This document shows, piece after piece, positions 4,620 through 39,163 of a stretch of DNA of 39,163 bases. The position numbers were made by a program, and so were the translations under genes. How positions within the stretch are numbered: the first letter of the stretch is position 1; the number at the start of each line of letters is the position of its first letter. Below the pieces are notes generated by a model, which worked only from the letters and a program-made list of their open reading frames with translations, searched no databases and was not told the DNA's origin. This DNA comes from an uncultured Verrucomicrobiales bacterium (GTDB lineage: Bacteria > Verrucomicrobiota > Verrucomicrobiia > Verrucomicrobiales > Akkermansiaceae). The stretch lies in the NCBI GenBank assembly GCA_937969495.1, contig CALBVY010000043.1:1-39163 (forward strand), written 5' to 3'.

Positions 4620-5795
4620 TCAATTAGCTTCTCTTACCCGTCTGGCATAAGAAAACTGCCGGCTACCTAACATAAATTTGATGTGGGCATCGGTAAGTTC
4701 ACCCATGGTGATACAGCTTTCAAATTCCTTGGTACCGTGAATTCTCCCAAGGTCTTCGCGTAATTGGATAACGTGTTCTGGTGGGGCCAGTTGTTCACGT
4801 GCCATGATGTTCAGTAGTGCCTGAAGACGGTTTTTTTCCGCTTGAGCGCGACGCGCCATCTGTGTGCGTTCTTCTTCCGCATACTGGGCAATGGTTTTAC
4901 GGTTCATCTCACGGAAGCTAAGGCGCGTTACATCTTTATTACTATCAAAGTGGTACGCCATATAGATCTTCCCCCTCCGCTCATAAGACTGCTGATCAAA
5001 ATCAATAGGGCGTACTCGGTACTGTACTTCCTCAAAGTCTGGGGTAACATCCACCACATAGTTTACAGATCTCATGTCACCTAACAGGCGAATAAAACAC
5101 CGTTCATTAAACTTCACAAACTCCTTGGCAATACGCACGCGATTAACATCAGGCTTCGCTAAATAATCATCCGCAAAGACATCTCCTGGTAAACCTGCGA
5201 TGTGCTCTTCGATCAGGGTATTACCCCTGGCAAGATAGTTAATCCTGTTAGGAGAAAGGATGTGCTCTAGCTCCAGACCATAGATGCGTGAAGCATCTGC
5301 ATTTTTTACGTAATAGTAATCTGAGTTATCGTTGTACTGATTGGTGATACGAATCCGAAACGGGCGTGAGTTTCCAAACTCTCCAAAATCAATTCTATCC
5401 ACAATCAGGTGCTCATGGTGTGTGGTATCACCCCCAATCTTAAGCTCCGCATAAATACGTGTCAGCCTAGGGCGCAGCTCCCTCATCGCCTCCTGAGGAT
5501 ACATCACCGTTAACCAGAGAGTTTCCTTCCCAGACGGATCTTCATAAGGAACAGAGCCGTTAAATCTCAATAAATCATCATAAACGAGAGGAATCTCAGA
5601 ATAGCGGCCAAAATGGTAGAGATACTGGCCAAGCGAGGCACTAACTGGATAGAGAGCCTTACGTCTGGAAATCATGGGCATGGTGGCCACAGATTGGCAG
5701 CCAGAAGCTATTATGGCAAGAACGCATGAGGGCTTGACGCTGCATATGGGCGGTGCGTAGTCTTCCCCCTGACAAAGCTTGCGGGTATTTTTCAT
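4620..5795 (-). CDS. Hypothetical protein, possible lipoprotein
   Basis: 391 residues with no family I recognise. A short hydrophobic stretch ending in a lipobox-like IIASGC at residues 28-33 suggests a lipoprotein, but it is preceded by about 20 polar residues that are unusual for a signal peptide. The true start may therefore be later than the ATG at 5793-5795, although no better in-frame ATG or GTG precedes the lipobox. The middle is mixed alpha/beta and rich in Tyr, Asp and Arg. Residues about 305-345 are a charged coiled coil (AEEERTQMARRAQAEKNRLQ), followed by a small helical tail. It converges with the cyclase-like gene and is divergent from accB. Confidence 0.6.
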   Translation of the reverse strand: MKNTRKLCQGEDYAPPICSVKPSCVLAIIASGCQSVATMPMISRRKALYPVSASLGQYLYHFGRYSEIPLVYDDLLRFNGSVPYEDPSGKETLWLTVMYPQEAMRELRPRLTRIYAELKIGGDTTHHEHLIVDRIDFGEFGNSRPFRIRITNQYNDNSDYYYVKNADASRIYGLELEHILSPNRINYLARGNTLIEEHIAGLPGDVFADDYLAKPDVNRVRIAKEFVKFNERCFIRLLGDMRSVNYVVDVTPDFEEVQYRVRPIDFDQQSYERRGKIYMAYHFDSNKDVTRLSFREMNRKTIAQYAEEERTQMARRAQAEKNRLQALLNIMAREQLAPPEHVIQLREDLGRIHGTKEFESCITMGELTDAHIKFMLGSRQFSYARRVREAN

Positions 5796-34793: not shown

Positions 34794-35640
34794 TTTAACC
34801 TAGATAATCATTGGATTAGGCAGGAAATCTTGTCAGGTCAATAAACACAAACTCCCCATGCCCACGGTTCAATACACCGATGGGCTGACATTGCTTTCCT
34901 CGAAAAATCAGCAGACGAGCTTGTGTTTAGAGAGATAATGGCAATTCTCGAAATCAAAATGCATATTCTGGGTTAAACGCCCCCTCTTTTTTCACACACT
35001 TAGTCCGTTTTTGTGATTAAAAATAAAATCATACTTATCCATCATAAAATTTCACCGATTCAAACAAAGTTTTACTCCATCTAGTATAGCCAACACCAAA
35101 CACCCCAAAATGTAGGGAAATACCATCATTTTAAAATATCAACATAACTATCTCATAATAAGCAATATAAGGCATAAAACCGCAATAGTTAACCTTCTGA
35201 GAGTAGCTCAGAATATTATACCCTGCACAACTATCCTACTGAGCCCAATTTATCCTCCTCAAAATTCACTCATGATGGTGATAAATTATTGTCTAAACCG
35301 TGAGAAATATTCCCTCCCTGTTATCTCATGATGAGAACGCTCTACAATTTTTAGTGAGATGATACCATTTCTCCAAATCTGAATTTCTATTCTGGATAGA
35401 ATGAGCTAACAAAAAATTATAACAGCAAATGGACTAAGCCCTCGACATATTCGTGTCATCTGACAAATTAATACCCTTGTGAGCATTTATCTAAATTGTA
35501 TCACGACCTAACAAAATATATCAAATATCAAAGAAGGTCTCTGAAAATATTCAGACTGACCACGGGCGGCAGCTTCTCAAAAACTTCCCTTTCTCTCACC
35601 CTTGGCTCTCGCTCTTGACTCTCTCCGCTTCTCTCCAGCT
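34794..35640. other. 847-bp AT-rich gap between mnmG and the integron integrase
   Basis: No gene of credible length is present on either strand. A short open stretch at 34845-34976 reads HGSIHRWADIAFLEKSADEL... with only an internal ATG, and could be the remnant of a gene, but no family is recognisable. The rest is AT-rich with scattered short repeats such as CTCATGATG at two places. It may be the scar of earlier insertions next to the integron. No rRNA, tRNA or terminator is clear except a weak hairpin near 35540. Confidence 0.45.
35536..35561 (-). terminator. Possible terminator downstream of intI
   Basis: TCTGAA and TTCAGA (35540-35545 and 35550-35555) form a perfect stem around AATA, extended by GGTC/GACC with a small bulge. 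Read on the minus strand it lies about 80 bp after the integrase stop. The T-tract behind it is poor (TTCTTTG), so it is only a candidate. Confidence 0.35.
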
Positions 35641-37503
35641 TTAAAGTTCATCCAAGGGACTCCTCACCACGTCACCTGGTCGGTTTAACACGTGTGTATA
35701 AATCATCGTCGTACTAACATCCGCATGACCTAACAATTCTTGAACTGTTCTAATATCTTGACCGCGCTGTAGCAGATGTGTGGCAAAAGAATGCCTTAAA
35801 GTATGGCAGCTGACACGTTTAATGATACCCGCCTTTGCCACCGCAGTCTTCACTGCTCGTTGCACCACCGTTTCGCCTAGATGATGTCTCCTAACAACTC
35901 CAGATTTTGGATCTTGAGAAAGTTTATCACTGGGGAATAGCCACATCCATGCCAGAGATCTAGCAGCATAAGGCGCTTTAATAGCCATTGCATCAGGCAT
36001 CCACACACCCGCTGTTCCAGACTTGGTATCCGCTTCTTGAATTTCACGCACCTTATCAATCTGCGCTTTTAATGCATCCACAATCGAATGGGGCAGGGGA
36101 GTATGCCGAGATTTCCCCCCCTTACCTCGCATCACCATCAAATAGCCGTTTTCAAAATCCACATCTTTTACCCTCAGCCGCATACACTCCATTAATCTAA
36201 GTCCCGCGCCATACATCAGCTTTGCCATCAGTAAGGAAATGCCATGCATCTCACCGAACAGCTTTGCTACCTCACCCTCCGTCATCACTACAGGTAAAGA
36301 CTTTCTACTAGATCCTTTACAGAAATTACCCAAAGTAAAATCTTCTATCAGAAACACAGATTTATAGAGAAATGACAATGCATTTACTGCTTGCTTCTGC
36401 GTATTCACCCCCACTCTACGCTCCATCGCTAAATAAGTTAGAAATCGCGTTGCCGCATCAACATCTGGTTTCCCCTCTAAGCCTTCTGCCTTATACCAAC
36501 GAAAAAAATCGACCGCCCAGTTTTTATAAGTTTTTTCAGTGCGTAATGCATATCGTCGCACACGTAATTTTATCACCAGCTGCTCAATCCACTTTACCGC
36601 ATCACCCTCCACACCAGCCTGAGTCACAAGCTTCTCCCTCTGCTCACTAGATAATTCCCGAACCAGATCTTCATGCAATGGCTCAAAGTCATCAATTCTT
36701 GCATAAATCATCTGCCACCGCATCGTTACAGCCCATGGACTCTTTAAAATATCCCGATGTGCCCAGCAAACTGCCTGCACTGCTTGCTTGATCTGCCAAG
36801 GCTCCATCACTTTCCCCATAAAATCCACCCAGCGCATTAACCTCTCATCGCCACTAAGCTCAGCCCAACAGACTGTTGCCCGCAACTGTGCCTGCTTTTG
36901 TAAGACATACTCCACCGTCCCCTCAACACCACGAGCATCGGCTTGAGCCGCATTTTTCTTACCTCCATGAGATGGAGAAAATTCTGCCTGATTTCGATAA
37001 AAATCTGCCCATCTCTCCAGATGTCTTCCATAGTAAACAAACGATGCTTGCGGAATCTTTCTCTTAGCCAGTAAAACCAAATAATCTTTCCAGAATACAC
37101 TGCCACTCAAAGCCTGGGACAAACCCTCACAACCTTCCGAACTAACATAAGCTGAACCACCTACCTTATTAAAATTAGCTTCATCACCATCCTCAACTTC
37201 CAATAAACGGCTAGGTTCCTGACAACTTAAGCAATACGCATAAAAATCTGCAAACCTCTCCGCCATTTCACTCACCCCAGCTATTGACTTTGCTAAAATC
37301 CACCGCTCAATATCATCAACTAAACTTGGCACCTCTATCACTTTCACTAATCCCAAACTCTCAAATTTCTCTAATCTTTCGAATTGATCACACCCAGATA
37401 AGCGGCCAACACCCTCCACCAATCCAGTATCACTCCTACCAGGCACCGACGATAAGTAATCAAAAGAACACATGTTCATAAGAGTATTTACAAGCTCCCT
37501 CAC
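35641..37503 (-). CDS. intI: Integron integrase (tyrosine recombinase) with long N-terminal extension
   Basis: 620 residues from a GTG start with AGGG seven bases upstream. Residues about 305-620 are an IntI-type recombinase: core-binding arm (YALRTEKTYKNWAVDFFRWY), catalytic Arg436 (YGAGLRLMECMRLRVKDVDF), His567-x-x-Arg570 (CHTLRHSF), His593 and nucleophile Tyr602 (HADVSTTMIYTH). The integron-specific insert is present at about 490-525 (EADTKSGTAGVWMPDAM...WLFPS), as is the GDVVRSPLDEL ending typical of IntI. Ordinary IntI is about 320-340 residues. Here roughly 300 residues precede it, including FWKDYLVLLAKRKIPQASFV, which resembles another SAM-like core-binding unit. It catalyses attI x attC and attC x attC recombination. 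Cassettes lie upstream of its start, the canonical divergent arrangement. Confidence 0.92.
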   Translation of the reverse strand: MRELVNTLMNMCSFDYLSSVPGRSDTGLVEGVGRLSGCDQFERLEKFESLGLVKVIEVPSLVDDIERWILAKSIAGVSEMAERFADFYAYCLSCQEPSRLLEVEDGDEANFNKVGGSAYVSSEGCEGLSQALSGSVFWKDYLVLLAKRKIPQASFVYYGRHLERWADFYRNQAEFSPSHGGKKNAAQADARGVEGTVEYVLQKQAQLRATVCWAELSGDERLMRWVDFMGKVMEPWQIKQAVQAVCWAHRDILKSPWAVTMRWQMIYARIDDFEPLHEDLVRELSSEQREKLVTQAGVEGDAVKWIEQLVIKLRVRRYALRTEKTYKNWAVDFFRWYKAEGLEGKPDVDAATRFLTYLAMERRVGVNTQKQAVNALSFLYKSVFLIEDFTLGNFCKGSSRKSLPVVMTEGEVAKLFGEMHGISLLMAKLMYGAGLRLMECMRLRVKDVDFENGYLMVMRGKGGKSRHTPLPHSIVDALKAQIDKVREIQEADTKSGTAGVWMPDAMAIKAPYAARSLAWMWLFPSDKLSQDPKSGVVRRHHLGETVVQRAVKTAVAKAGIIKRVSCHTLRHSFATHLLQRGQDIRTVQELLGHADVSTTMIYTHVLNRPGDVVRSPLDEL

Positions 37504-37791
37504 GTCAATACCCTATTTAGTAATAACTAATTTTTTTTATGAATGAAGAAATAATGCAGGCAGCAGAGCTACACGATTCACTCGATAATATCGAGTAGTC
37601 ATGGGCTAAAGTGTATGGATTGAGATCGATGGTTTATTTTGCTATTCAAGTTTTGTAAGCGTAGAGATAACTGTATTTCTCAAAAACTACCGACATAACT
37701 CCTTTGCCGAATAAAACGCCATATCTAATTGATAACTATCTTATAATGAAAGACATATTCACCACGTCACCAGCCGAAAGATTGTCTGTAT
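37504..37791. other. Probable attI/integrase promoter region
   Basis: 288 bp between the integrase start and the first attC, where attI and the integrase and cassette promoters are expected. I cannot identify attI by sequence, as it is not conserved between integrons. No real gene is found. Two very short frames preceded by Shine-Dalgarno-like bases are not supported. A perfect 8-bp inverted repeat lies at 37580-37596. Confidence 0.4.
37580..37596. promoter_or_regulatory. 17-bp operator-like palindrome upstream of intI
   Basis: ACTCGATA and TATCGAGT are perfect inverted arms around a single central base (37588), 77 bp upstream of the integrase start. The spacing is too tight for an RNA hairpin and suggests binding of a dimeric regulator. 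SOS control of intI by LexA is known in some bacteria. This sequence does not match the proteobacterial CTGT-N8-ACAG box, so the regulator is unknown. Confidence 0.45.
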
Positions 37792-37909
37792 ATAGAACGT
37801 ATAGATCAACCGCCGCCTGTAAAACAGTCATAGGCCGAGCACGGTTTTTACCTCTCAAAGGTTTCCGTCTACAAGACGAGTAACTGTCGGATGCAGCGTC
37901 TTGTTCGAT
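37792..37909 (-). repeat. attC site 1 (118 bp), minus orientation
   Basis: Read on the minus strand it starts with R''-like ATCGAAC, 9 bp after the toxin gene stop, followed by AAGACGCTGCATCCGAC (L''), and ends GGCGGTTGATCTATAC (L') and GTTCTAT (R'-like). The outer boxes carry the AAC...GTT recombination core. It is the same length as attC site 2 and identical at 96 of 118 positions without gaps, including the central spacer. Its orientation is opposite to site 2. The outer ends are partly complementary, as needed for folding of the recombining strand. It ends the toxin-antitoxin cassette. Confidence 0.82.
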
Positions 37910-37917
37910 TTCTTTTT

Positions 37918-38175
37918 TCAATAATGATACCTTAGTTGTGCCAGTTGGATAATATCTCCACTGATTCTATAAACCAACCGATGCTCGTCGGTAATACGTC
38001 TAGACCAGAATCCTGAAAATGCGTGCTTCAATGGCTCAGGCTTTCCAATTCCTTGATAAGGGTCATCACGGCTGATGTCGACTAACAGCGCATTGATCTT
38101 TTTTATTACTTTGCGGTCATATTGCTGCCAATGTGTATAATCCTCCCCAGCTCTATCGGAGAACTGAATATTCAT
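37918..38175 (-). CDS. yoeB: YoeB/Txe-family mRNA interferase toxin
   Basis: 85 residues, typical size. YoeB cleaves mRNA in the ribosomal A site. The conserved catalytic set is present: Glu47 (KPEPLKH), Arg66 (TDEHRLVY) and the C-terminal His84-Tyr85 (LRYHY), matching Glu46, Arg65, His83 and Tyr84 in E. coli YoeB. Its start codon overlaps the antitoxin stop (ATGA), giving translational coupling. It is part of a gene cassette ending in attC site 1. In integrons such cassettes stabilise the array by post-segregational killing (inference from studied systems). Confidence 0.95.
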   Translation of the reverse strand: MNIQFSDRAGEDYTHWQQYDRKVIKKINALLVDISRDDPYQGIGKPEPLKHAFSGFWSRRITDEHRLVYRISGDIIQLAQLRYHY

Positions 38176-38429
38176 GACAATTCATCCAAACTTTTAACCA
38201 CTCCTTGCCCCTTCTCGAGCTGTGAAATCCCTTCGGAAAGCCGCTGTGCATTCTTGGGTGATCTCAGGAGGTATGCTGTCTCCTGAAGAGATTCATAATC
38301 TTCTAGAGAAACCATAACCACAGCCTGGTTCCGTTTGCGCGTGATAATCACTGGATCATGATCATCGCAAACTAAATTCATGGTGGCGGCAAGGTTCTCT
38401 CTCGCTGCTGAATAGGTGATCGCTTTCAT
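38172..38429 (-). CDS. yefM: YefM/Phd-family antitoxin
   Basis: 85 residues. The N-terminal dimerisation and DNA-binding fold (MKAITYSAARENLAATMNLV, then PVIITRKRNQAVVMVSLEDY) is that of YefM/Phd antitoxins. The C-terminal 30 residues form the flexible part that covers the toxin active site. It precedes yoeB with a four-base overlap, the usual antitoxin-first order. YefM normally represses its own promoter. The gene is on the minus strand and the short cassette leader upstream is AT-rich, leaving room for its own promoter. Known family; identity is secure, partner inferred from adjacency. Confidence 0.93.
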   Translation of the reverse strand: MKAITYSAARENLAATMNLVCDDHDPVIITRKRNQAVVMVSLEDYESLQETAYLLRSPKNAQRLSEGISQLEKGQGVVKSLDELS

Positions 38430-38462
38430 ATGGACAGGATAGCGTACAATTTAGGAGTGTCT

Positions 38463-38575
38463 ATTCTTATTCTTATCGAACATACACATTGATTAATCTC
38501 TACAATAGACAATCAGTCGTCTATCCCATAAACTACAACCAGTTATCCATTTAACTGTTCGGTAATAATAAGAAT
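38463..38575. repeat. 20-bp inverted repeat at the junction of two head-to-head cassettes
   Basis: Bases 38463-38482 and 38556-38575 are inverted copies with two mismatches, separated by 73 bp. Each arm contains a CGAAC/GTTCG core like the outer boxes of the two attC sites: ATCGAAC at 38475-38481 and GTTCGGT at 38557-38563. The right arm leads directly to the start codon of the zinc-ribbon gene, the left one to the antitoxin gene on the other strand. So both cassettes begin with nearly the same leader. The sequence between the boxes, 38482-38556, could be a degenerate attC, but lacks the GCGCTGCATCCGAC block of the other two. Confidence 0.7.
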
Positions 38576-38577
38576 CC

Positions 38578-38913
38578 ATGGCTGAAACGTATCATTGTTG
38601 GAGGTGTAAAATGCCTATTCCGATGCTCACAGATGAGGAATGGGAAGTTATAAGGCCGCTATTATGGGCAGACACAAAGAAGATTAAATCATATAGAGAG
38701 GAATCGGGTGTGGGTCTGAGGGAGGCTTTAGATACCTTGCGATTTCGGGCGTGTGAGAAGTATTACGAAATAACAGGTTTTCGGGAGACTAACCCTAATG
38801 CTTTGTGGCATCATTACCTTTCGCTCTATGGCCCAGAATGTATCAATTGTGGTCACTTGCTAAGAACACCCAAAGCATCATATTGTGCTAATTGCGGAGC
38901 CTCTAAGAATTAG
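38578..38913 (+). CDS. Cassette-encoded zinc-ribbon hypothetical protein
   Basis: 111 residues. The N-terminus begins with a CxxC pair (HCWRC, Cys7 and Cys10) before MPIPMLTDEEWEVIRPLL. The middle is helical. The C-terminus carries two further CxxC pairs (CINCGHLL and CANCGA), a zinc-ribbon layout. No enzyme motif is seen. The ATG is 15 bp after the putative recombination box, and the stop is immediately followed by the R''-like box of attC site 2, so the gene fills its cassette exactly. Proteins with this pattern occur among integron cassettes of unknown function (family knowledge, not checked). No ribosome binding site is evident. Confidence 0.75.
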   Translation: MAETYHCWRCKMPIPMLTDEEWEVIRPLLWADTKKIKSYREESGVGLREALDTLRFRACEKYYEITGFRETNPNALWHHYLSLYGPECINCGHLLRTPKASYCANCGASKN

Positions 38914-39031
38914 ACCGAACAAGGCGCTGCATCCGACCGTTAACCGTCTCTGAGTCGGAAACCATTGAGAGATAAAAACCTTGCTCGGTTTGCGTCTGTT
39001 TTACACGCGGCGGTTGAGCTTTACGTTCGAC
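38914..39031 (+). repeat. attC site 2 (118 bp), plus orientation
   Basis: It starts ACCGAAC (R''-like) directly after the gene stop codon, then AAGGCGCTGCATCCGACC (L''), and ends GCGGCGGTTGAGCTTTAC (L') and GTTCGAC (R'-like). The L'' and L' parts are partly complementary. The AACAAGGCGCTGCATCCGAC...TGAGCTTTACGTT type is widespread in environmental gene cassettes (from memory). It aligns with attC site 1 over the whole 118 bp at 81% identity. It ends the zinc-ribbon cassette in the direction canonical for an integrase on the opposite strand. Confidence 0.86.
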
Positions 39032-39163
39032 TATGAAGACATGCATTGGATTGGATCGCTAGCTTTGGCAGAGTTGATTATGTGTTAGTTTTCCGTAGGT
39101 GAAGGGTTTTGATCACGAAGTTCCAGCTTCAACATAAATTATAGCTTGAATCTTTGCAGGAGA
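39032..39163 (+). other. Start of a further cassette, cut off by the window edge
   Basis: After the attC recombination box there is no complete gene. A frame from the first ATG closes after nine codons. The last seven bases are AGGAGA preceded by GC, a strong Shine-Dalgarno-like sequence. The next cassette gene would therefore start just beyond the right edge on the plus strand. Confidence 0.4.

Follow-up and report, generated by a model that had tools for sequence, protein, structure and literature searches.

The window, by which we mean the entire stretch of DNA analyzed, covers contig C43 (39,163 bases) completely, in a MAG of 98 contigs. It carries the gene for an integron integrase (intI) and two cassettes, A and B, which point away from each other on either side of a short stretch bounded by an inverted repeat. 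Their features are as follows:

35641–37503, minus strand: intI, integron integrase of 620 aa
37504–37797, no strand: spacer from intI to the reversed cassette
37798–38480, minus strand: cassette A, 683 bp, yefM-yoeB, backwards between intI and attI
37792–37909, minus strand: cassette A attC (R'' ATCGAAC; R' GTTCTAT), its last six bases being flank
37918–38175, minus strand: yoeB-like toxin gene of cassette A
38172–38429, minus strand: yefM-like antitoxin gene of cassette A
38436–38463, minus strand: promoter-like site inside cassette A, TAGACA-16-TATCCT, from a consensus scan only
38463–38481, minus strand: arm 1, start of cassette A, GTTCGATAAGAATAAGAAT on this strand, the G at 38481 being flank
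38482–38557, plus strand: attI as assigned below, conserved part 38505–38557, recombination after the G at 38557
38506–38534, plus strand: promoter-like site in attI, candidate Pc, TAGACA-17-TAAACT, from a consensus scan
38557–38575, plus strand: arm 2, start of cassette B, GTTCGGTAATAATAAGAAT, the G at 38557 belonging to attI
38558–39025, plus strand: cassette B, 468 bp, starting at attI and ending at its own attC
38578–38913, plus strand: ORF within cassette B, product of 111 aa without family match
38914–39031, plus strand: cassette B attC (R'' ACCGAAC; R' GTTCGAC)

The intI product matches TIGR02249 with 381 bits (cut-off 265) over residues 307–620 as well as the Pfam families Phage_integrase and Phage_int_SAM_4, and has an N-terminal extension of about 300 residues without Pfam match. 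The integrases of G013 and G011 are 719 aa long, with conserved blocks such as FW..YLVLLAKK.IPQ.SF.YYGRHLERWA; kinship at the genus level was taken from the same-genus relative G011 (JALZUC010000017.1), an Akkermansiaceae MAG. An AlphaFold model of IntI was too poor for use (mean pLDDT 37.8). In the extension of the G013 integrase, a GCQEA peptide occurs in tandem, with a repeated 15-mer in the DNA (L052 5200–5300), and the genome of the window encodes a second integron integrase, 45% identical and 5'-truncated at a contig end (G000:C67:54-875). A putative mnmG-like ORF precedes intI both in the window and in G011.

Cassette A has a clean G^TT at both ends and its own attC. Its toxin gene matches PF06769 and TIGR02116 (105.8 bits, cut-off 51.8), and its antitoxin gene PF02604 and TIGR01552 (41.4 bits, cut-off 20.8), while NF008499 scores 107.9 bits, below its cut-off of 121; with both protein families matched, the pair is identified as a YefM-YoeB toxin-antitoxin (TA) module. 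Relatives of yefM-yoeB with 72–75% DNA identity adjoin attC sites of this lineage in G012, G002, and G008. The cassette that comes after B (39026–39163) has a start like that of the terminal cassette on contig C83 in this genome (L019 1–90), so the contig of the window probably ends within a repeated cassette.

The inverted repeat and the stretch between its arms

The two arms (38463–38482 and 38556–38575) match at 18 of 20 positions, and the repeat search lengthens both to 31 nt at 77%. Scanning the entire window for two 20-nt arms that agree at 18 or more positions and lie inside 113 bp returned this pair alone, and 20 simulated order-1 Markov windows yielded none as strong. The arms hold the boxes ATCGAAC (38475–38481) and GTTCGGT (38557–38563), which the initial annotation had likened to integron core sites, taking the arms for the starts of two head-to-head cassettes. 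An integrated cassette opens with half of its own attC, the R' part, and its start is therefore expected to be complementary to the R'' box at the opposite end of the cassette. Arm 1 (GTTCGAT on the minus strand) indeed complements the ATCGAAC of the cassette A attC at 7/7 positions, and arm 2 (GTTCGGT) does the same with the ACCGAAC of the cassette B attC (7/7), in agreement with both proposals: cassette A occupies 38480 to 37798 on the minus strand, and cassette B begins at 38558 on the plus strand.

Over the 15 sources with full-length attC matches, counting consecutive pairs only, complementarity of a cassette start to its own box was complete in 43 of 53 attC pairs, as against 297 of 2756 non-own pairs (10.8%). 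Matches cut at an end (two in L071, one in L072) and the partial match at 5461–5552 of L020 were left out of this count and of the leader counts, and these model-based figures replace a pattern-based own-box count of 15/22, whose misses include skipped attC sites. Unique leaders were alike at 17 or more of 19 positions in 36 of 1540 pairs, compared with 4 of 44,850 for random GTT 19-mers, and the leader motif was present in 23 of 67 leaders under a stricter pattern and in 22 of 36 under a loose one. The expectation that the same leader would recur directly after other attC sites was borne out in related species: that of cassette B has an exact copy (19/19) after an attC in G013, and that of cassette A an 18/19 match after attC sites in G002 and G013. 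It did not extend to the genome of the window, where the cassettes of contigs C83 and C70 have shorter or different leaders and none of the leaders seen reaches 17/19 with either arm, the close matches all coming from other species.

The arms are alike because the start GTTRRRYAAnAATAAGAAT is common to many cassettes of the genus. The inverted repeat is a by-product, each cassette starting in the R' half of its own attC and continuing into the leader AAnAATAAGAAT, which may aid translation. We also noted that a G013 cassette starting GTTAGATAAGAATAAGAATTC recurs, with an identical or nearly identical start, in several arrays (L052 5711 and 8513, L070, L071, L072), and that the bases before R'' in the attC 5' flanks of L070, L071, and L072 often read AAnAATnTG, a flank seemingly resembling the AAnAATAAGAA leader found after R'.

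What the initial annotation had missed is the nature of the stretch between the arms. Its approximately 75 bp correspond to an element that follows the 75%-identical intI of G013 and G011, in which the counterparts of 38505–38557 lie between a divergent intI and the first cassette, and six genus genomes (G009, G005, and G010 included) have in common the core CCATTTAACTGTT and an upstream TAAACT-like box, which reads TTAACT in G013. Judged by these alignments, the stretch is the attI of the integron, and cassette B is therefore, on the same grounds, an ordinary first cassette. For an integron lineage of genus rank in Akkermansiaceae, the attI is thereby defined.

The repeat had also been read as a minimal, degenerate attC, or as a secondary recombination site. 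Its outer boxes do look like R'' and R', and the stretch, folded as DNA, does somewhat better than shuffled sequences, with z values of −1.91 and −2.26. However, the two true attC sites have z values from −1.15 to 0.72, so that folding does not discriminate, and we dropped it as an attC criterion. We relied instead on a covariance model with R and L box pairs, built from an alignment of 26 attC sites of the genus, in which the R'', L'', L', R' architecture is present, and scanned positions 35000–39163 without filters. The attC sites of cassettes A and B obtained 102.9 and 114.6 bits, respectively, whereas the best overlap with 38463–38575 remained at noise level (4.3 bits, E-value 2.5) under this profile, L boxes included; moreover, the interior of the repeat is a conserved attI. 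An attC or autonomous site is thus extremely unlikely, and we are highly confident that the 113-bp feature consists of an attI with a cassette start on either side, the two cassettes being oriented outward. A leader shared by cassettes of a lineage can, in this way, let head-to-head cassettes mimic a recombination site.

The proposal that both cassette promoters lie within the repeat stood only in part. The candidate for cassette B, whose TAAACT part recurs in the aligned attI sites, is located in attI, but that for cassette A lies inside the cassette and runs from arm 1 away from attI. Promoter-like sites in the region are not above chance (3 found for 3.4 expected). The arrangement would preserve both candidates, attI with its candidate still leading into B and cassette A carrying a candidate of its own.

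Origin of the reversed cassette

The distance from a conserved start motif of intI to the attI crossover is 1089 nt with cassette A and 406 nt without it, as compared with 304 nt in G013 and 199 nt in G011, and this excess identifies cassette A as an extra, complete cassette. Among the matches listed, whose rows were counted by eye, one of the 28 same-genus contigs with at least two attC sites, the window, had them in mixed orientation, the other 27 having a single orientation. When intI loci were surveyed for further reversed cassettes, paired attC sites of the lineage were seen upstream of intI only in the window, G013, and G012; at the remaining loci there were no matches or isolated noisy ones, and these loci are uninformative.

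Cassette boundaries, attC sites, attI, leader family, and reversed orientation are all read from the sequence itself, and from them we infer that the insertion of cassette A was made by IntI, which would be the simplest and most likely route. Cassette B would have been captured normally at attI (G^TTCGGT), and a circular cassette A would have been inserted by the integrase at a secondary, attG-like GTT site in the intI-attI spacer. The target would be G^TTCTAT on the minus strand, which precedes the attI crossover by about 76 bp on its upstream side, and insertion on this opposite strand would leave cassette A backwards between intI and attI; before it, the empty site would have read GTATATAGAACATACACATTG on the plus strand. 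As in attG-like insertions, cassette A is precise, has G^TT at both ends, and lies outside attI and attC sites. The R' that completes its attC is now a foreign one (GTTCTAT), still able to pair with R'' at 6/7 positions. The empty site was not found in the 13 other genus genomes, and the spacer matched only one of 14 genus genomes, namely that of the window itself. Resemblance of the insertion site to attI was also considered and received little support, the site ranking 28th of the 1111 GTT sites in the window with a score of −2.75, against 41.6 for attI.

An inversion that placed the two cassettes head to head, of which the repeat would be the scar, had been suggested at the outset. Yet the orientation of attI relative to intI is the one seen in G013 and G011, and cassette A alone is reversed; because nothing is unusual in the order and orientation of attI and cassette B, an inversion spanning attI is excluded. 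In a narrower form, cassette A would have been captured normally and inverted later via oppositely oriented GTT sites, and IntI-linked inversions between inverted GTT motifs are indeed reported (PMC10127599). However, a flip of cassette A alone requires that it previously stood upstream of attI, and we find this course of events quite unlikely.

An assembly chimera has to be weighed as well, given that the MAG is fragmented into 98 contigs and that the region of the left junction has a 27-nt exact stretch in common with contig C70. This stretch nevertheless lies inside the attC, so that the reversed attC half stays joined to the intI side. At the right junction, exact stretches in common with L019 or L020 stay below 12 nt, and the only good match of this junction in the genome is itself. 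Two independent misjoins would thus be needed, which makes a chimera very unlikely.

Altogether, an attI standing between two cassette starts, with B captured normally and A captured backwards at an attG-like site, is in all likelihood the correct account of the locus. We deem quite unlikely a broader scheme in which the attI of this lineage could be loaded on both sides, the integrase placing cassettes outward from either flank and the TA cassette, by its backward position between intI and attI, making loss of the platform costly.

Comparison with known systems

The locus has the main attributes of a sedentary chromosomal integron, namely an IntI of TIGR02249, a divergent attI, attC sites of the R''-L''-L'-R' type, and a first cassette at attI. 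It differs by the extra cassette lying backwards between intI and attI and by the long N-terminal extension of IntI. Insertions at attG sites have reportedly been described by Loot et al. in 2024. Cassette A resembles such insertions in that it is complete, has G^TT on both sides, and occupies a site that is neither attI nor attC, but it lies in reverse and 76 bp from the crossover of the integron's own attI. Precise insertions of cassettes at secondary sites are reported in PMC1382264, and PMC10127599 describes the site demand of IntI1 as loose (GNT/GTTRRRY). The aadB cassette in RSF1010 is given as a secondary-site insertion of this kind (Recchia and Hall 1995, cited in PMC1382264 and PMC10127599).

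Judged by title and the opening of the abstract, none of the papers listed in literature searches, which reach few subscription papers, describes a reversed cassette between intI and attI; this does not prove that no such report exists. The locus would represent a naturally occurring case of backward cassette capture adjacent to attI. The Treponema integrons, in which intI points toward attI, depart from the usual layout in a different manner (PMC3607928). Finally, cassette A is similar to the TA cassettes of chromosomal integrons (PMC11023631) in that a TA module forms the cassette and a promoter-like site lies inside it; in contrast to them, cassette A is located outside the array and faces intI.
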